A stretch of DNA of 64,000 bases from Oscillatoria sp. FACHB-1406 (GTDB taxonomy: Bacteria; Cyanobacteriota; Cyanobacteriia; Cyanobacteriales; Spirulinaceae): contig NZ_JACJSM010000001.1 of assembly GCF_014698145.1 (NCBI RefSeq), forward strand, positions 408,633 through 472,632, in the 5' to 3' direction. Position 1 is the stretch's first letter, and each line of letters begins with the position of its first letter. Position numbers and translations under genes: made by a program. Under the pieces are notes generated by a model that was not told the origin of the DNA, did no database searches, and saw nothing but the letters and a program-made list of their open reading frames with translations. This document shows positions 45,454 to 56,869 of this stretch, piece by piece.

Positions 45454-48400
45454 ATGTCTCTCAAAGCAATCAAGCAATTTGCCACCCGAGGGGTCGGTCG
45501 CATCCCCCTCAATGCCTTTCTCGTTGTTCCTTTTATAGTGCAAATTGCAGGCATAGTCAGTGTTGTGGGCTACCTTTCTTTTAAAAGCGGTCAAAACGCC
45601 GTTAACGACCTCGCCGCTCAACTCCGGCAGCAAATTAGCGATCGCACCGAGCAAAAATTAGACGCATACCTCTCCATACCCCGTCAACTCAACCAAATTA
45701 ACGTCGATGCTGTCGAACTCGGGCTGCTAAAACTCAACGATTTTACCACCACGGGTCGTTATTTTCTCAAACAGATGCAAGCTTTTGAGATTGGTTATAA
45801 CAACTTCGGCAATATCAAAGGAGAATTTATTGGTGTCGAACGGCTTAATAGCGGCAAACTCCTGATTAATGAAGTTTCCGAGTCAAAGCAATTAGGCAAA
45901 CTCTACGTTTACACCACCGACGCAAAAGGAAATCGCACCCGCTTAAAGGAAATCAAAAATTACGATCCGCGCAGTGAAGCTTGGTTCTCAGATACATTCA
46001 AAGCTGGAAAACCAACCTGGAGTCCGATTTATGAATGGGAAGATAAACCGGAAATTCTCTCGGTTTCTTATAACTACCCTCTTTACGATCGCGAGCGTAA
46101 ATTTATCGGCGTTATCGGTATCGATCTTATTCTCTCCCAAATTGGCGAATTCCTCCGCACGCTCAAAATTAGTCCCTCTGCTAAAACTTTTATTATCGAA
46201 CGCGATGGATTTTTAGTCGCTACCTCAGCATCAGAAGCGCCCTACACTCTCAAAAATGGCAATGCAACGCGCATTAAAGCTTCCCAAGGGCAAGATCGCC
46301 TCATGCGAGAAACCGCCCGCTTTCTCGAGAGAAAGTACGGCAATCTCCAGCAAATCCAAAAAGCTCGATTCCTGGATTTCAAGCTGGAAGGAGAACGTCA
46401 ATTCGTACAAGTCACGCCCTGGCAAGACAAATTCGGCCTCGATTGGTTGATTGTGGTGGTCGTTCCCGAAGCCGATTTTATGGGTCAAATTAATAATAAT
46501 ATTCGCACGACCATTGTCCTCTGTCTCGCCGCTCTCGGAGTTGCGGTTGTCGTCGGCATTCTTACTGCCCGTTGGATTATCTTACCCATTCTCCGGCTTA
46601 AGGATGCCGCGATCGCGCTCTCCCAAGGAAATTTCGACTCCATTGTTCCCCTCAATCGCAAAGATGAATTAGGAATTTTAGCCAATGCTTTTAATAGCAT
46701 GGCCCAGCAATTGCAAGCCTCATTTGCAACCTTAGAAACCCAAAACGCCGAACTGCAACGCCTCGATAAACTCAAAGACGAATTTCTCGCTAATACTTCT
46801 CACGAATTGCGCACGCCCCTCAACGGAATTATCGGTTTAGCCGAATCGCTCGTTGATGGCGCGACGGGCGAACTTCCCGATACAACCAAAGCCAATTTAA
46901 ATACAATTATTGCCTCCGGTCGCCGACTTGCCAATCTCGTTAACGATCTTCTCGATTTCTCTCGCTTGCGGCACAAACATATCGAACTACAACTCACGGC
47001 GGTAGGTTTGCGGGAGATTGTTGATTTGGTATTAACCTTTTGTCAAACTCAAGTCGGTCAAAAATCGTTGCAACTGATTAACGCGATCGATCCGGAAACC
47101 CCTTTAGTTCTTGCTGATGAAAATCGCTTGCAACAAATCCTCTATAATTTAGTCGGAAATGCTATCAAATTCACCGAATCTGGCATCGTTGAAGTCTCGG
47201 CACAATTAGTTTTTCCCGAACCGCCTCCGAGCGATGATGAGCGTTTGTTTGCCACGACCGGAAACCTTGCCATCTCTGTTAAAGATACCGGCATTGGCAT
47301 TCCCGAAGATCGATATGAGAAAATTTTTGAATCTTTTGAACAAGCGGATGGTTCCACTGCCAGAGAGTACGGCGGAACCGGTTTAGGACTCGCCGTTACC
47401 CAAAAACTGGTCGAGTTGCATGGGGGAGAAATTCATCTTACTTCTCAAGTTGGCGTTGGCTCGGAGTTTGTGTTTACGCTGCCCTTAGCTCGGTCGGCAG
47501 ACAGCAAGTTACAACGCTGGGAAGATCGAGAGCGAAATAGGTCGCTTTCCTTAAAAGATTTGCGGCAAGCTCAAGACTTGCAAGCGACAAAATCAACCGC
47601 ACAAATGATTGCCAAGCTAAGCGATAGATGCCCTCTTATTTTAACAGATAATAAGCCCAAGGTTAACAGTCAATTCAGGATTTTAATTGTCGATGACGAA
47701 CCCGTAAACTTACAAGTTCTCGCCAATCATTTGTTACTAGAAAATTACGCGATCGCGCAGGCGACGAATGGTTTTGAGGCACTGGAAATTCTCAATAGAG
47801 GGTTTAAACCCGACCTGATTCTGCTCGACGTGATGATGCCGCGCATGACGGGTTACGAAGTTTGTCAAAAGATTCGAGAAAGCTTCCCCGCTCTAGAGTT
47901 ACCAATCGTCATGCTCACTGCCAAGAATCAAACCGAGGATTTAGTGCAAGCCTTTAATCTCGGGGCTAACGATTACTTAACAAAGCCTTTCGTTAAAAAA
48001 GAACTGCTCGCTCGCATTAAAACTCATATCAGTTTGTCTAAGATTAACGCTGCTTACGGTCGCTTTGTCCCGCACGATTTTCTCAAGTTTTTAGGGAAAG
48101 AGAGCATCATCGATGTCGAACTTGGCGATCATACCTACAAAGAAATGACAATTCTCTTTTCGGACATTCGCTCGTTCACTACCCTTTCCGAGCAAATGTC
48201 CCCAGAAGATAATTTCAACTTTATTAACAGTTATTTGAAGCGCGTCAGTCCGGTCATTCGCAATCGCAACGGCTTCATTGATAAATATATCGGCGATGCG
48301 ATTATGGCTTTATTTCCCCGCTGCGCTGATGATGCGGTTAAAGGTGCAATTGAAATGCAGGAACAAATTCGGCTGTATAACGCACACCGCGAGATGCAAG

Positions 48401-48933
48401 GATACGTTCCGATTTCAAGCGGTATGGGGCTGCATACTGGAGATATGATGTTAGGCACGATTGGCGAAGAACAGCGTATGGAAAGCACTGTAATTTCCGA
48501 CGCGGTGAATTTAGCCTCTCGTTTGGAAAGTCTGACGAAACCTTATGGGGCAAAAATTTTAATCAGTCAGGAGACGCTATACTCGCTGGCTGATATGGAG
48601 AAGTTTCACTATCGATTTCTCGATCGCGTTCGCGTTAAGGGCAAAAATCAGGCGATCGCGATTTTCGAGATTTTTGACGGCGATCCTGAAGAAGTTCGAG
48701 CGCTCAAGCTGCAAACCAAAAGCGAGTTCGAGCGTGCAATTGTTTATTACTACCAGCAACAGTTAGAACCCGCCGAGCAAATTTTCCAAGAAATCTTGCG
48801 CCTCAACCCCGAAGATCGCGCCGCCGCCCTCTACCTGACGCGCTGCACCCAAAACCCAGATTCCCTCCCCATCGAAGGCGAGCTAGGTACAGAAATCTTA
48901 ACCTCGAATTATAGCGTCACCCTAGGCGAATAA
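45454..48933 (+). CDS. Cache-HAMP hybrid histidine kinase fused to class III adenylate cyclase
   Basis: The 1159-residue protein has a membrane segment (about 22-44), an extracytoplasmic double-Cache sensor (about 50-330), a second membrane segment (about 350-372), HAMP, HisKA ([14 protein letters not shown]), HATPase_c ([27 protein letters not shown]), a receiver (LILLDVMMPRMTG, KPF) and a C-terminal cyclase homology domain. The cyclase has both metal Asp residues (LFSDIRSF, GDAIMALF), the ATP-selecting Lys in FIDKYIGD, and Thr in STVISDAVNLASRLE at the second purine-selecting place, which is the class IIIb pattern (often bicarbonate-responsive). It resembles Spirulina CyaC in using a kinase and receiver to drive cAMP synthesis, but senses outside the cell. 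Confidence 0.93.
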   Translation: MSLKAIKQFATRGVGRIPLNAFLVVPFIVQIAGIVSVVGYLSFKSGQNAVNDLAAQLRQQISDRTEQKLDAYLSIPRQLNQINVDAVELGLLKLNDFTTTGRYFLKQMQAFEIGYNNFGNIKGEFIGVERLNSGKLLINEVSESKQLGKLYVYTTDAKGNRTRLKEIKNYDPRSEAWFSDTFKAGKPTWSPIYEWEDKPEILSVSYNYPLYDRERKFIGVIGIDLILSQIGEFLRTLKISPSAKTFIIERDGFLVATSASEAPYTLKNGNATRIKASQGQDRLMRETARFLERKYGNLQQIQKARFLDFKLEGERQFVQVTPWQDKFGLDWLIVVVVPEADFMGQINNNIRTTIVLCLAALGVAVVVGILTARWIILPILRLKDAAIALSQGNFDSIVPLNRKDELGILANAFNSMAQQLQASFATLETQNAELQRLDKLKDEFLANTSHELRTPLNGIIGLAESLVDGATGELPDTTKANLNTIIASGRRLANLVNDLLDFSRLRHKHIELQLTAVGLREIVDLVLTFCQTQVGQKSLQLINAIDPETPLVLADENRLQQILYNLVGNAIKFTESGIVEVSAQLVFPEPPPSDDERLFATTGNLAISVKDTGIGIPEDRYEKIFESFEQADGSTAREYGGTGLGLAVTQKLVELHGGEIHLTSQVGVGSEFVFTLPLARSADSKLQRWEDRERNRSLSLKDLRQAQDLQATKSTAQMIAKLSDRCPLILTDNKPKVNSQFRILIVDDEPVNLQVLANHLLLENYAIAQATNGFEALEILNRGFKPDLILLDVMMPRMTGYEVCQKIRESFPALELPIVMLTAKNQTEDLVQAFNLGANDYLTKPFVKKELLARIKTHISLSKINAAYGRFVPHDFLKFLGKESIIDVELGDHTYKEMTILFSDIRSFTTLSEQMSPEDNFNFINSYLKRVSPVIRNRNGFIDKYIGDAIMALFPRCADDAVKGAIEMQEQIRLYNAHREMQGYVPISSGMGLHTGDMMLGTIGEEQRMESTVISDAVNLASRLESLTKPYGAKILISQETLYSLADMEKFHYRFLDRVRVKGKNQAIAIFEIFDGDPEEVRALKLQTKSEFERAIVYYYQQQLEPAEQIFQEILRLNPEDRAAALYLTRCTQNPDSLPIEGELGTEILTSNYSVTLGE

Positions 48934-49257: not shown

Positions 49258-49298
49258 ACGAGCTAGAAATCGAAACTAACACTGTGTTGGAGAATCAA

Positions 49299-49766
49299 AT
49301 GCAGCTTACACGCCGTCAACAACTGGGTGATTTCAGCAGTCTGGTCTGCTTTAAAGCAGCAATTGCCGGAATGGAAGAAGCCTTGGGCGAAAAAGCAACC
49401 GCGATCGCGCTGACTGCGGCCGGTCGCAAGCGCGGGAAATCTCTCGTTCAAACACTGGGGTTAAGCCATACTTCCCTACCTAACGAGGAAATTGTCACCC
49501 AACTCCAAAAAGCTCTCGGCATAGAAGGAACCCGGTTGTGCATTGTTGAAAAGATCGAAACAGAAGGAGACAAATATAAAGTTTATGTCTCCGAAGCCCT
49601 CTGTAGTGCTGGCGAACCCGACGGAAGCGATCGCAAATGCTTATTTACCCTAGGAGCCGTCTGGGGCGCAATGGAAGAAATCTTAAACAAAAAATTCCGG
49701 GGCGTTCATACCGAAAGCGTATTGAAAGGCTCTCCCTACGACATCTTTGAACTCACGCCCATGTAA
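49299..49766 (+). CDS. V4R/HNOB-like domain protein, first gene of GTPase operon
   Basis: The 155-residue protein has an early CFKAAIAGMEEALGEKATAIALTAAGRKRGKSL helix pair, then a mixed sheet with CIVEKIE, YKVYVSEALCSAG, and an end FTLGAVWGAMEEILNKK ... HTESVLKGSPYDIFELTP. The end pattern (FxLGxxxGxxE, then GxPYxxFExxP) matches V4R (4-vinyl-reductase) domains, related to HNOB/Bet v1-like sensor folds. I start at the ATG at 49299 with GGAG six bases ahead; a GTG five codons up lacks a site. The Cys of GDPYC is replaced here. It may bind a small hydrophobic ligand and feed the GTPase switch. Confidence 0.75.
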   Translation: MQLTRRQQLGDFSSLVCFKAAIAGMEEALGEKATAIALTAAGRKRGKSLVQTLGLSHTSLPNEEIVTQLQKALGIEGTRLCIVEKIETEGDKYKVYVSEALCSAGEPDGSDRKCLFTLGAVWGAMEEILNKKFRGVHTESVLKGSPYDIFELTPM

Positions 49767-49838
49767 ACTAATGGGCATCCTGCCCCTAGGGGCGATCGCT
49801 TGCTGTACTCGTTTTGAAATTATTAAGGAGAATTCAGA

Positions 49839-50210
49839 ATGCCACTCAACGTCATGAGCCTTGAATCCACGCTGCAAAACTTCGTCGCTCAAACCAACGA
49901 TATCCAAGGAGCCGCCCTCGTCTCTCCCGACGGTCTTCCTCTGGCTTCTAACCTGCAAGGCAACATGGACGAAGAACGAGTCGCAGCTATGTCTGCAACC
50001 ATGTTGTCCCTCGGCGAACGCATTGGGATGGAACTCGCTCGAGGTAGCATCGATCGCATTTACGTTGAAGGAAACCAAGGCTACGCCATTCTGACGGGCT
50101 GCGGCGAGGATGCTGTCCTGCTTGTTCTTGCGGCTGCATCGGCAAAACAAGGCGTGCTAATGCTCGAAATCAAGCGCCTCGTTGCCGAACTGAAAGGCTA
50201 TCTGAGCTAA
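49839..50210 (+). CDS. Roadblock/LC7 domain protein
   Basis: The 123-residue protein is a single roadblock/LC7 domain: DIQGAALVSPDGLPLASNLQ, EERVAAMSATMLSLGERIGMEL, and the IDRIYVEGNQGYAILTGCGEDAVLLVLAA sheet. Such proteins (MglB, CvnB) dimerise and regulate small Ras-like GTPases, often as the activating partner. AAGGAG stands nine bases before the ATG. It is the second of four same-strand genes. Confidence 0.92.
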   Translation: MPLNVMSLESTLQNFVAQTNDIQGAALVSPDGLPLASNLQGNMDEERVAAMSATMLSLGERIGMELARGSIDRIYVEGNQGYAILTGCGEDAVLLVLAAASAKQGVLMLEIKRLVAELKGYLS

Positions 50211-50264
50211 ACGGCTCCAACTCGGACGGGATTCATTGGTTGTCAGGAAAGAGGGAGTCATAAT

Positions 50265-51164
50265 ATGGGGATTTCGGGTCGTTTAATTACATTTTCTTTA
50301 GCAGAAGTTCTGCAAATTCTCGCTCGCGGACGAAAAACCGGATTGCTAACCATTCAAGGATTAGCTGACGAACAATGGCATCCCGCCCATTATATTTGGT
50401 TCTACAACGGCCGCATCGTTGGAGCCGCCTCCTCGCTCGATTGCCAAGGACTATTACTCATGATGCACCAGCGCAAATGGCTGAGTCCCCAAGCGCTGTC
50501 CGAACTCAACCAATTACGCGAACTCGACACTCCCCTCGGCTCTTACTTAAAAATCAAAAGTCACCTCCAAGGCGAACAACTCAAACTCCTGTTCCACGTT
50601 CAAGTGCTTCAACGAGTTTGCACGCTGTTTAAATACAAAGACGGACGCTTTAAATTTGACTCCCAAGCGCCGCTTCCCAAGGCCGAAATGACAGGAATGA
50701 GTATCTCCGGAGTTGAAGGCATTTTATTAGGACTGCGCGTTCTACGAGATTGGAGCGCGCTAACGGACAAACTTCCCAGCCCGAAAATAGGGTTGATAAA
50801 ACCCTTGGGGGCTAAGCTGACGTTGAGCTTAGATAGCTTAGAACGGAAAGTTTGGGACTTGGCAGATGGAATGTTTTCCCTCGAGGAAATTGCCGTTCGT
50901 ACCGCCCTGCCTATTACCGCGATCCAACAGACAGCTTTTCGGTTAATATCGGTTGGATTGGTCGAAGAAGTCGCGATCGAAGCTTACCTCCCCACACTGG
51001 AGATCGTCGCCCCTCTGCCAGAAGAGCCGAGCGATACTCCCAAGCAAGAAGAAATTTCCCCTTCGTTTCTCAAAAATTTAGTAGGCTTTTTAAAGAGCAA
51101 AGTTTCATACCCAGGAGTTTCCTCATCAGTTCGCCAGAATTTACTCAACATTCAGAGGAGTTAA
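50265..51164 (+). CDS. DUF4388 (PATAN-type) domain protein
   Basis: The 299-residue protein has an N-terminal DUF4388/PATAN module (about 1-125: ISGRLITFSLAEVLQILARGRKTGLLTI, IWFYNGRIVGAAS, LSPQALSEL), known from the PatA-like response regulators that steer phototaxis in cyanobacteria. The middle (GVEGILLGLRVLRDWSALTDKLPSPK) and a DNA-binding-like helix pair (VWDLADGMFSLEEIAVRTALPITAIQQTAFRLISVGLVEE) follow, ending in a Pro/Glu-rich tail. There is no receiver domain. It follows the roadblock gene after 54 bases and precedes the GTPase by six. Confidence 0.85.
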   Translation: MGISGRLITFSLAEVLQILARGRKTGLLTIQGLADEQWHPAHYIWFYNGRIVGAASSLDCQGLLLMMHQRKWLSPQALSELNQLRELDTPLGSYLKIKSHLQGEQLKLLFHVQVLQRVCTLFKYKDGRFKFDSQAPLPKAEMTGMSISGVEGILLGLRVLRDWSALTDKLPSPKIGLIKPLGAKLTLSLDSLERKVWDLADGMFSLEEIAVRTALPITAIQQTAFRLISVGLVEEVAIEAYLPTLEIVAPLPEEPSDTPKQEEISPSFLKNLVGFLKSKVSYPGVSSSVRQNLLNIQRS

Positions 51165-51170
51165 CACTTA

Positions 51171-51719
51171 ATGGAGTTAATGCGATTAGTCGTAACGGGA
51201 GCCGTCGGAGCCGGGAAAAGTACCTTCGTTCGCACTGCCAGCGAAATTGAAGTTGTCGATACCGATCGCACCGCAACTGATACAACCGCTCTCCTCAAAA
51301 AAAGCACTACCGTCGCGATGGATTTTGGCAAATTTACCTTCGGTTCCGACAGAACCTTGCACGTTTATGGAACTCCCGGTCAAGCCCGCTTTGACTTTAT
51401 GTGGGATTTGTTAATCGCCAAAGCTAACGCTTATATTTTGCTTGTCGCCGCCAATCGCCCCGAAGAATTTCGCCACTCTCGACAAATTCTCACTTTCATC
51501 AATCGGCGCGTTAAAATTCCAATGGTACTCGGCATTACCCATAGCGACTGCGAAGATGCTTGGGAAGGTGAAGATATTGCTTGCGCCCTCGGATTTCCGT
51601 TTGAAAATTTTCCACCCATCTTAACCGTAAACCCAAACGATCGCACCTCCACCATTGAAGCGTTAATCGCCCTCGTCGAGCATTGTTTGTTGCACTCACC
51701 TCAAACGGTTCGCCGCTAA
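51171..51719 (+). CDS. Ras/CvnD-like small GTPase
   Basis: The 182-residue protein has a P-loop GAVGAGKST at 10-18, a switch I-like STTVAMDFGK at 45-54, and G3 read as GTPGQARFDFMWD (67-79). The usual DxxGQ Asp is Gly67. At G4, the usual NKxD is THSD at 123-126, keeping only the Asp. These changes and the FMWD motif match the CvnD group of the Streptomyces conservons and the MglA-like family. GTP would be bound, but nucleotide choice may be relaxed. A GGAG lies before the ATG; six bases separate it from the DUF4388 gene, indicating coupling. Confidence 0.9.
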   Translation: MELMRLVVTGAVGAGKSTFVRTASEIEVVDTDRTATDTTALLKKSTTVAMDFGKFTFGSDRTLHVYGTPGQARFDFMWDLLIAKANAYILLVAANRPEEFRHSRQILTFINRRVKIPMVLGITHSDCEDAWEGEDIACALGFPFENFPPILTVNPNDRTSTIEALIALVEHCLLHSPQTVRR

Positions 51720-51929: not shown

Positions 51930-52328
51930 GTGGAACCCCCTCTCGAACGCTTCAAACTCTCTCAAACGGCGAAAGACCAACTGGTTAAACTCAAACGCCA
52001 TACCAAAATCGACCAGTGGAATATTCTCTGTCGCTGGGCTTTTTGTCGCTCGCTTGCCGAACCAACCATTCCTTCTATCATTCCAATTCCTGCCGATAGT
52101 AACGTCGAGTTGACTTGGCGCGTCTTTGGGGGAGAGTTAGCCGATCTGCTTGCGATTGCGTTAACACAACGCTGCCATAACGATGGTTTAGCGACCGATA
52201 AAGAAACTCTCGCAACCCAATTTCGCCTGCACTTGCATCGCGGTATCGGATATTTAGCAGGCGATACAAATTTGCGAAAAATTGAGGATTTGGTGCAACT
52301 CGCCGCTTTCGTAATTCGTAATTCGTAA
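51930..52328 (+). CDS. dndE: DndE-family DNA sulfur modification protein (orphan)
   Basis: The 132-residue protein matches DndE along its whole length: EPPLERFKLSQTAKDQLVKLKRHT, DQWNILCRWAFCRSLAEPTIPS, VELTWRVFGGELADLLAIAL and RCHNDGL. DndE is a tetrameric DNA-binding partner of the DndBCD phosphorothioation complex and favours nicked DNA. No dndA, B, C or D is in the window. The start is GTG at 51930. The last five codons (VIRNS) and stop are read from the heptamer repeat that follows. Confidence 0.88.
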   Translation: MEPPLERFKLSQTAKDQLVKLKRHTKIDQWNILCRWAFCRSLAEPTIPSIIPIPADSNVELTWRVFGGELADLLAIALTQRCHNDGLATDKETLATQFRLHLHRGIGYLAGDTNLRKIEDLVQLAAFVIRNS

Positions 52329-54193: not shown

Positions 54194-56869
54194 ATGACTT
54201 TCGTCGGTCTTCATATCCACAGCGACTATAGCCTGCTCGACGGTGCATCTCAACTCCCCGCTCTCATCAATCGTGCGGTCGAACTGGGAATGCCCGCGAT
54301 CGCGCTTACCGATCACGGAGTTATGTACGGCGCGATCGAACTGATTAAAACTTGTCGCCAGCATAACATTAAGCCGATTATCGGCAACGAAATGTATGTT
54401 ATTAACGAAGACAATATCGAAATCCAACACAGACGCATTCGCAAATACCATCAAGTCGTTCTCGCGAAAAATACCCTCGGCTATAAAAACCTTGTTAAAC
54501 TCACTTCAATTTCTCACCTCCAAGGCTTCCAAGGCAAAGGAATTTTTGCTCGCCCTTGTATTAATAAAGCCCTATTAAAACAATATAGCGAAGGATTAAT
54601 TGTTACCAGTGCTTGTTTGGGCGGTGAAGTTCCCCAAGCCATTTTAGCCAGAGACTACGATCGCGCGCGCGAAGTCGCAAAATGGTATCAAGAAGTTTTT
54701 GAAGACGATTATTACCTCGAAATTCAAGATCACGGTTCGCCCGAAGATCGCTTAGTGAATGTCGAAATCGTTAAGATTGCCAAAGAACTCGATATTAAAA
54801 TCGTTGCGACCAACGATTCTCACTTTATTTCCTGCTACGATGTCGAAGCTCACGATGCGTTACTCTGCATTCAAACGCAAAAATTAATTACCGAAGACAA
54901 ACGCCTGCGCTATAGCGGTACTGAATACTTGAAGTCAGCGGACGAGATGAAGGCGTTATTCCGCGATCACCTCAGCGATGAAATTATTGAAGACGCGATC
55001 GCGAATACCCTCGAAGTTGCCGAAAAAGTTCGTCCTTATCAAATCATGGGCGAACCGCGCCTCCCGAATTACAACGTTCCTCAAGGACATACCGCCGATA
55101 GTTATGTCGAAGAAATCGCTTGGCAAGGACTACTAGAACGGTTGAAATGTCGCGCGATCGAAGAGATCGAACCCGTTTACCAAGAACGGCTAAAATACGA
55201 ACTCAAGATGATCCAGCGCATGGGATTTTCTACTTACTTTTTGGTCGTGTGGGACTTCATTAAATATGCACGGGACGAAAAAATTCCCGTTGGCCCCGGG
55301 CGCGGTTCTGCTGCTGGTTCTTTAGTTGCTTACACCCTTCATATTACCAATATCGATCCAGTACATCACGGTCTTTTATTCGAGCGTTTTTTGAACCCAG
55401 AACGCAAATCGATGCCCGATATCGATACCGACTTTTGTATCACCAAACGAGAGCAAGTCATCGATTATGTAACCCAAAAGTACGGAACCGATAAAGTCGC
55501 TCAAATTATTACCTTTAACCGCATGACATCGAAAGCGGTATTAAAAGATGTCGCGCGTGTTTTAGGTGTCAGTTATAAAGACTCCGATCGCATGGCAAAA
55601 TTAATTCCCGTATCGCGCGGAAAACCGACAAAGCTGAAAGTCATGATCTCAGCTGATACGCCCGAACCGCAGTTCAAAGAAGCCTACGAACGCGATACCG
55701 TTGCGATTAAAAACGAGCGCGACGAAGAAGTCGGACAAATGCCCGTCCGCCGCTGGGTTGATATGGCAATTCGCATCGAAGGGACGAATAAAACCTTTGG
55801 CGTTCATGCGGCGGGTGTTGTTATCTCTTGCCTGCCTTTAGATGAAATCGTTCCCCTACAACGAAATAATGAAGGAGCGGTCATTACTCAATATTCGATG
55901 GAAGAACTCGAATGTTTGGGATTATTGAAAATGGACTTTTTAGGTCTAAAGAATTTAACGACAATTCAAAAAGCGATCGCGCTAATCGAGAAAAATAATA
56001 ATACAGTTCTAGACCCTTACGACTTCCCGTTAGAAGAGCGAAAAGCGCAACGAATTCTCGAAAAAGGGACAGCAAAAAAAGTTCCAGAAGGCGTAAAAAA
56101 AACTTACGAACTCTTCCGAGATGGCGAACTTGAAGGAATATTTCAAGTCGAATCGGAAGGCATGAAACAAATCGTTCGCGACCTCAAACCTTCCTGCTTA
56201 GAAGATATTTCTTCCATTCTCGCGCTCTATCGTCCCGGCCCGTTAGATGCAGGACTCATCCCCGATTTTATTAACCGCAAACACGGTAGAGAAGAGATTA
56301 GCTACGAGCATACTTTATTAGAGCCAATCCTTAAGGAGACTTACGGCGTACTTTGCTACCAAGAGCAAATCATGAAAACCGCCCAAGATTTAGCGGGATA
56401 TTCTTTGGGACAAGCAGATTTGTTGCGCCGAGCGATGGGGAAAAAGAAATTATCGGAAATGCAAAAGCAGCGTTCGGCATTTCTTGATGGTTCGGCTAAA
56501 AATGGGATTTCGTCTCAATTAGCGAACGCGCTGTTCGATAAGATGGTTAATTTTGCCGAATATTGTTTGAGTTACAAAACGTTGATTTTAACGGAAGAAT
56601 ATGGCTTAATGCCGATCGGAAAAATTGTCGAAGAACGGATTAAATGTACGGTTTATAGCATCGATCGCAATGGTTTTGTCCGCACGCAACCGATCGCGCA
56701 ATGGCACGATCGCGGCGAACGCGAGATTTTCGAGTATGCTCTAGATAATGGCTCGACGCTGCAAGCAACCGCCGATCATAAATTTATGACCGAAACTGGC
56801 GAAATGCTGCCTATTGACGAAATTTTCGAGCGGGAATTGGATCTATTAGTCGTGCCAACTCCCGGTTAG
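54194..56869 (+). CDS. dnaE-N: DNA polymerase III alpha subunit, N-terminal part with split-intein N half
   Basis: The 891-residue protein consists of the DnaE N-extein (1-790) and the first 101 residues of the split DnaE intein. The PHP domain is at the start ([17 protein letters not shown]). The polymerase core follows with [16 protein letters not shown], the acidic PDIDTDF, and the family's [10 protein letters not shown] and GLKNLT. The extein ends FAEY and the intein begins CLSYKT at Cys791. The intein N half has the block A Cys, ECT-like [11 protein letters not shown] and the block B ATADHKF. The C half with the rest of the polymerase is encoded elsewhere and joins by protein trans-splicing. 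Confidence 0.97.
56564..56866 (+). other. Split DnaE intein, N half
   Basis: The first codon TGT at 56564 gives Cys1 after extein residue Tyr790. The block A region, [20 protein letters not shown] and DHKFMT (block B Thr/His-like), are all intact. The 101 residues match the ~102 of other cyanobacterial DnaE N inteins. The end [11 protein letters not shown] is short of the usual tail but complete. Confidence 0.95.

Follow-up and report, generated by a model that had tools for sequence, protein, structure and literature searches.

The MglA/MglB systems of Myxococcus and Thermus comprise a small GTPase that lacks the usual G3 Asp and an adjoining roadblock partner, and the actinobacterial conservons (CvnA-D) likewise join a roadblock protein and a GTPase, with a GTPGQ motif, in a four-gene operon. 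In a 64,000-nucleotide stretch of Oscillatoria sp. FACHB-1406 (contig NZ_JACJSM010000001.1, positions 408,633 to 472,632 of the forward strand; this whole stretch is hereafter the window), we analyzed a four-gene operon at window positions 49299-51719 whose GTPase and roadblock genes adjoin others as in these systems. We refer to its first protein as V4, to the roadblock protein as RB, to the PATAN protein as PT, to the GTPase as GT, and to a protoglobin found beside its relatives as PG. The GTPase carries GTPGQ at G3 where MglA has TVPGQ, and Thr where group 1 MglA has an intrinsic Arg finger; in place of RomR and Frz, the partners of the module are a V4R-fold protein, protoglobin and a PATAN-winged-helix protein. 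Neither the kinase (CvnA) nor the DUF742 protein (CvnC) of conservons was found in a Pfam scan of the operon's four proteins, upholding a contrast drawn in a first-pass annotation of this DNA; a V4R-fold protein and a PATAN-winged-helix protein occur instead, in other phyla. What is new in this arrangement is the presence of two candidate inputs, the V4R-fold protein and protoglobin, for an MglA/roadblock switch.

Parts of the arrangement were already known, namely cyanobacterial protoglobin and PATAN genes near MglA/MglB genes. The published grouping of MglA proteins includes Cyanobacteria in group 5 and reports occasional PATAN genes near MglA genes of groups 1 and 5; in its main text the term 'v4r' does not occur, and its account of group 5 names no globin partner (PMC4316618). 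Among open-licence PubMed Central papers we found no description of V4R, roadblock and GTPase genes in one operon, nor of protoglobin with an MglA/roadblock-type GTPase. The features of the operon are as follows, the Shine-Dalgarno-like sites being read from the sequence.

49289-49292, + strand: Shine-Dalgarno-like GGAG of the V4 gene
49299-49766, + strand: V4, predicted V4R/Bet3-fold protein, probable small-molecule-binding input, 155 amino acids
49825-49830, + strand: Shine-Dalgarno-like AAGGAG of the RB gene
49839-50210, + strand: RB, Roadblock/LC7 protein, MglB-like, probable platform for GTPase activation or nucleotide exchange (GAP/GEF), 123 amino acids
50253-50257, + strand: Shine-Dalgarno-like GGGAG of the PT gene
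50265-51164, + strand: PT, PATAN (DUF4388)-winged-helix adaptor with a linker and a C-terminal tail helix (residues 266-280), 299 amino acids
51155-51160, + strand: Shine-Dalgarno-like GAGGAG of the GT gene, within the 3' end of the PT gene
51171-51719, + strand: GT, small Ras-like GTPase with MglA-family motifs, 182 amino acids

Read as open reading frames (ORFs), the four same-strand genes are separated by gaps of 72, 54 and 6 bases, and these frames together with the Shine-Dalgarno-like sites bear out the order, spacing and ribosome sites noted in the first pass. An in-frame GTG lies at 49284, upstream of the V4 start. A consensus scan returned one promoter-like site where 2.7 were expected and four terminator-like sites where 4.3 were expected, none of them informative; we therefore infer co-transcription from spacing and conservation only.

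We next consider how far the gene set is conserved. Searches covered 292 cyanobacterial genomes, sampled evenly across the phylum; diverged copies may be missed, and protein and profile searches agreed with each other (16 and 16 genomes for V4, 25 and 25 for GT). Sixteen genomes had V4, 25 had GT and 29 had protoglobin, 28 of the last being over the cut-off. V4 and GT co-occurred in 13 genomes (Fisher 1.9e-13) and V4 and protoglobin in 12 (1.2e-10), while GT and protoglobin co-occurred in 23 of the 25 GT genomes (1.7e-26). All 26 GT loci that were fetched had RB and PT within 4 kilobases (kb) on the same strand; protoglobin was found at 24 of them and V4 at 10. A second, V4-centered survey used the best 80 of 156 relatives in named genomes. 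Several of these 80 loci end at contig ends, and they are not independent, since some share a genome (L117 with L152, L122 with L144). Within 4 kb of V4 we observed RB at 75 loci, GT at 70, PT at 68 and protoglobin at 37, and V4 lay less than 300 bases from RB in 55 loci and less than 700 in 61. The expectation that the four genes would be neighbors in other cyanobacteria was thus confirmed by both surveys.

Gene order varied across the 80 loci: V4 RB GT PT occurred 11 times, PT GT RB V4 10 times, and the window's own V4 RB PT GT four times. That linkage survives this rearrangement speaks for a functional unit. Distances among V4 proteins correlated with those of RB (0.67, n = 80), GT (0.42, n = 76), PT (0.74, n = 71) and PG (0.74, n = 42), values reached in 0 of 500 permutations. 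No fusion between the five families in one open frame was seen among loci L048-L160. Seven clusters (L131, L151, L117, L121, L123, L135 and L136) combine one protoglobin and one V4 with two roadblock genes, and often with two GTPase genes as well; such tandem clusters could give two switches one input. Of 102 roadblock loci, 19 have a HisKA_3 kinase and a LuxR-type response regulator upstream in the same orientation (for example, L049 3293-5172), and this pair may be part of the signaling chain in its lineage.

The same gene set recurs outside the Cyanobacteria. When plasmid records were searched at the protein level, V4 turned up in eight, all from Deinococcus; seven of these hits covered at least 80% of V4 at 45-49% identity. 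These copies are annotated 'hypothetical protein' and sit on large plasmids. In each of the seven Deinococcus loci that we opened, one strand carried, in this sequence, a hypothetical gene (PATAN-like), a gene annotated 'ATP/GTP-binding protein', one for a roadblock protein and V4, and the cyanobacterial profiles recovered V4, RB and GT in 7/7. The first genes of these loci were matched neither by the PT profile (0/7) nor by DUF4388 in Pfam (0 of the 4 scanned), and are linked to PT by profile-profile comparison only (82.8%, E 9.4e-6, 211 columns). No protoglobin was found on the seven plasmids. The genes that follow V4 there encode HD or HD-GYP proteins in three cases, a GAF-LuxR protein and a GAF histidine kinase in one case each, and hypothetical proteins in two. 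Deinococcus is not phototrophic and is generally held to be non-motile. The grouping of these genes exceeds chance, as seen in the linkage of RB and PT at 26/26 GT loci and in the recurrence in Deinococcus. We also considered a mobile or viral origin of V4 and rejected it: no V4 occurred in phages, and the 62 pattern matches in viral contigs included no relative.

The first protein of the operon is recognizable by fold rather than by profile. Compared by sequence with Pfam, NCBIfam and solved structures, V4 returned nothing credible; its sole Pfam match, NGF (0.02), was below the cut-off and taken as noise. The Pfam V4R profile (PF02830) matched neither V4 nor anything else in the window's genome at E<=0.001 (the control matched in 3 of 14 genomes), and in an alignment of the window's V4 with 73 relatives from named genomes it matched 7 of 74 sequences at E<=1, weakly, the best at 2.2e-4. 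The AlphaFold2 model of V4 (mean predicted local distance difference test score, pLDDT, 89.9; predicted template modeling score, pTM, 0.85) has four helices and four strands, in keeping with the V4R/Bet3 fold, in which a four-stranded sheet packs against four to five helices. Foldseek returned 63 matches to this model at E<=0.001. The MopR phenol sensor (1.1e-6) and mouse Bet3 (2.2e-6) head the list, which also includes Thorarchaeal TRAPPC3 (1.1e-4) and Nostoc H-NOX (4.1e-4). VIA-align placed MopR first (Z 15.9, 140 aligned, 2.9 A), with the MopR/PoxR/DmpR sensor domains at Z 14.3-15.9, followed by the V4R protein MJ1460 (13.5), cellulose-synthase BcsD (13.3), TRAPPC3 (13.2), Bet3 (12.9) and a chain of the TRAPP-Rab complex (7kmt, 12.5), and H-NOX at about 8. 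The phenol sensors share the fold of V4; theirs are N-terminal domains of transcription activators, whereas V4 is free-standing.

V4R and Bet3 have been described as having two glycine pairs in common, with three residues between the members of each (PMC2253512). The corresponding pairs in V4, G42/G46 and G119/G123, are invariant in 92/92 unique cyanobacterial sequences, and both motifs are also present in 7/7 Deinococcus sequences. Since fold and glycine motif fit and the profile does not, we call V4 a V4R-fold or V4R-like protein and not a member of Pfam V4R; the first-pass label "V4R-like" therefore stands on fold and on both glycine pairs, and fails on the profile. As modeled, V4 is a V4R/Bet3-fold protein and, judged from its closest folds, a probable binder of hydrophobic ligands. 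Among the 92 sequences Cys17 and Cys102 are kept in all, Cys114 in 86 and Cys81 in 76, and a zinc site of the PoxR/Thor-TRAPPC3 type was considered. The H-NOX (HNOB) family is marked by a conserved heme-ligating His. No His is invariant in the 92 V4 sequences (the best, His137, is present in 80), and the fold match to H-NOX is distant; for lack of such a His we reject heme binding of this kind and with it the HNOB identity that had been offered as an option.

The roadblock regulator and small GTPase proposed in the first pass were recovered by Pfam as Robl_LC7 (5.2e-17) for RB and as Ras (3.6e-6) and ATP_bind_1 (1.5e-12) for GT. By sequence search, the nearest solved roadblock structures to RB are 7f8m (5.6e-24) and CvnB5 (3leq, 7.4e-12), and its Asp-Gly pair D31-G32 is kept in 100/100 unique sequences. 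GT keeps the P-loop and, in 100/100 unique sequences, Thr46-Thr47 of switch I; in its G3 motif GTPGQ, residues Gly67, Thr68, Pro69 and Gln71 are kept in 100/100 and Gly70 in 99/100, and GTPGQ is present in 7/7 Deinococcus sequences. Its G4 motif, THxD, departs from the [NT]KxD of group 5, with His124 in 98/100 and TRQD in two Deinococcus sequences. The GT profile matched no solved structure at E<=1e-6, and the best 60 of 291 matches of the GT sequence to solved structures were all KRas, the top one at 2.7e-5. In the published grouping, MglA groups 2-5 are marked by GTPGQ and by Thr instead of Arg in G2, and their MglB partners by the Asp-Gly pair; CvnD belongs to group 2, found in Actinobacteria, and Cyanobacteria are listed there only in group 5 (PMC4316618). 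By its motifs, GT carries the marks of MglA groups 2-5. As GTPGQ spans these groups, and CvnD is an actinobacterial group 2 protein, "MglA-family" suits GT better, by motif and phylum, than the earlier "CvnD-like".

PT was identified by DUF4388 in Pfam (2e-24, 86.4 bits against a gathering score of 25); its winged helix gave HTH_47 (0.0054), weak and below the cut-off. The AlphaFold2 model (pLDDT 90.3) predicts a PATAN part followed by a winged helix and, beyond a linker of low confidence at about 240-264, the tail helix at 266-280, and the structural matches to the winged helix span residues 148-240; this search barely probed the N-terminal PATAN half. The top seven Z scores over 148-240 belong to GATOR1/SEA complex chains (8.3-9.7, over about 73 residues). 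GATOR1 acts on eukaryotic Rag GTPases. We draw no conclusion about a relationship, as other winged helices score 8.1-8.2 and the best Foldseek E is 0.057. The tail motif is present in 78 of 96 PATAN sequences; an amphipathic membrane anchor was rejected for it, the hydrophobic moment in the window's copy being ordinary (reached by 0.40 of shuffles). The PATAN proteins of Synechocystis phototaxis are PATAN-receiver proteins that bind the pilus motor (PMC9090330). In PT no receiver domain was seen in Pfam, the model or the structural matches, the C-terminal part being winged helix and tail. The earlier description of a PATAN adaptor is therefore correct for DUF4388 and incorrect for the phototaxis-steering type.

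Protoglobin was first encountered as an unlabeled gene of about 184 amino acids in nearly all cyanobacterial GT loci, and was identified by PF11563 (2.3e-19 and 2.3e-32). The proximal His101 and Tyr45 are kept in 18/18, and by family the protein is a predicted heme gas sensor. A cyanobacterial member is known from Thermosynechococcus (NP_682779, 194 amino acids; PMC1457004). Protoglobin is the commonest extra partner of the module in relatives; this was not visible from the window, because its host genome has no detectable copy. Two of the 25 GT genomes lack protoglobin, the window's own and G091; in each of them V4 is the first gene of the operon and RB follows directly. The pattern is suggestive of a swap of V4 for protoglobin as sensor.

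Given the observed gene set, its families and folds, linkage in two phyla, conserved motifs and association with protoglobin, we think it somewhat probable that the operon encodes a ligand- or gas-responsive GTPase switch. The complexes, ligand, direction of regulation and output in the following scheme are proposals. GT, as an MglA-family GTPase, would cycle between GDP- and GTP-bound states, and an RB dimer would dock on it and alter its nucleotide state, as a GTPase-activating protein, a nucleotide exchange factor or both, comparable to MglB on MglA. V4, encoded beside RB, would bind a small hydrophobic ligand and relay its occupancy to RB and GT. In most cyanobacterial relatives protoglobin would report to the switch a gas bound at its heme (O2, NO or CO), and in the window's genome V4 would be the sole input. 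PT with its tail helix would serve as the output adaptor, most likely onto transcription or another signaling protein. A natural globin-roadblock fusion, HGbRL of the non-motile bacterium Methylacidiphilum, provides a precedent for globin-to-roadblock signaling (PMC4476040). It couples a heme globin to a roadblock in a single protein, whereas the module has separate genes, a protoglobin, and V4R and PATAN partners in addition.

Several observations weigh against a ligand- or gas-responsive switch of this kind. The HGbRL globin is of a different group from protoglobin, the linkage and distance correlations would also arise through shared descent, and a sensor swap cannot be proved from two genomes. 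Twelve of the 25 GT genomes have no V4, and for this reason we regard it as an optional part of the switch. Of 17 full V4 copies in the 292 genomes, 11 have GT within 4 kb, the window's included. Copies in G074, G123 and G174 are unlinked from the GT cluster, though these genomes hold both, and a second copy in G072 lies with RB and PT and no GT. In favor of the switch, the three V4-bearing genomes without GT all show decay: G070 has a V4 pseudogene with stops, G062 a V4 copy with a PT remnant only, and G245 a truncated PATAN gene. In the last (L079, 4719-7727), protoglobin and V4 are followed by the truncated PATAN gene and a DDE transposase; neither a roadblock nor a GTPase gene was found in the L079 stretch, and no GTPase in the genome.

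Other readings of the same genes differ mainly in what they assign to PT and V4. PT could be a DNA-binding or kinase-docking output under GT control, acting on transcription or a second messenger as in conservons, of which Cvn8 controls specialized metabolism (PMC13343842). Its winged-helix region (148-240), the upstream HisKA_3 kinase and LuxR regulator in 19 of 102 roadblock loci, and the HD/HD-GYP (3/7), GAF-LuxR and GAF histidine kinase neighbors in Deinococcus all point this way. Winged helices also make protein contacts, however, the best matches of PT are GATOR1 subunits and not DNA-binding proteins, and the kinase pair is absent from 83 of the 102 loci; we consider this output possible, if on balance doubtful.

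V4 could instead be a structural subunit flanking the RB dimer, as in TRAPP, with the V4-RB complex acting as the exchange factor of GT. The TRAPP core (Bet3, longin and Rab) and the TRAPPC3, roadblock and GTPases of Asgard archaea present the same three fold classes as V4, RB and GT; here a single bacterial operon encodes all three, the GTPase being of the MglA type. In TRAPP cores, Bet3-type subunits flank dimers of longin, and in strain MK-D1 of the Asgard archaea the genes of small GTPases are described as in general not sharing operons with those of roadblock, longin or TRAPPC3 (PMC10933270). The alignments of V4 with Bet3, archaeal TRAPPC3 and the TRAPP-Rab chain, as well as the close spacing of V4 and RB genes, fit such a subunit. 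Yet the best fold matches are bacterial phenol sensors and not Bet3, GT is not Rab-like, and the GT genomes that lack V4 indicate that it is unneeded for the core switch; moreover, a common fold is no proof of function, Bet3 and V4R sharing theirs by descent anyway. We judge this structural role unlikely. Slightly less probable still is a ligand-gated bacterial counterpart of the TRAPP core, in which V4 and the RB dimer in one complex would set the nucleotide state of GT and protoglobin would add a gas signal.

The least probable reading is the motility or polarity switch of the first-pass annotation, with an MglA/MglB pair and a PATAN output on type IV pili, perhaps for phototaxis: MglA/MglB do control polarity in Myxococcus, and the PATAN neighbors of MglA groups 1 and 5 and the pilus-motor binding of the Synechocystis proteins agree with it, but PT shows no receiver domain, just 25 of the 292 cyanobacterial genomes have GT, the module sits on plasmids of non-phototrophic, generally non-motile Deinococcus with HD/HD-GYP, LuxR or histidine-kinase neighbors in 5/7 loci, and the annotated Deinococcus regions showed no pilus gene (cyanobacterial neighbor genes were identified only in part). 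Neither a motility or polarity role nor phototaxis is supported.

The operon's surroundings in the window are varied. A 1159-amino-acid hybrid of dCache, HAMP, histidine kinase, receiver and guanylate/adenylate cyclase domains (45454-48933, + strand) lies 365 bases upstream on the same strand. Just downstream is a DndE gene of DNA phosphorothioation (51930-52328, + strand; PF08870 6.6e-43, TIGR03184 1.7e-39). Further on, a DNA polymerase III alpha gene (54194-56869, + strand, 891 amino acids) contains PHP, NTPase and finger domains only and ends soon after them; we take it to resemble the N-terminal piece of the DnaE that many cyanobacteria encode in two parts with a split intein.

Little is known of the signals that act on Ras-like GTPases in prokaryotes. 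By gene linkage, the module ties two candidate sensors to one GTPase/roadblock switch, making the question of what such a switch senses directly testable, and it looks like a widely used yet unstudied module in signaling. V4R has been proposed as the ancestor of the TRAPP subunit Bet3 (PMC2253512), and a bacterial operon of V4R, roadblock and GTPase genes offers a tractable biochemical system for that idea. Were the ligand-gated counterpart of the TRAPP core to prove true, the folds that make up a Rab activator in eukaryotes would already be wired as a GTPase-regulating operon in bacteria, and V4R/Bet3 subunits would have begun as ligand sensors of GTPase switches.

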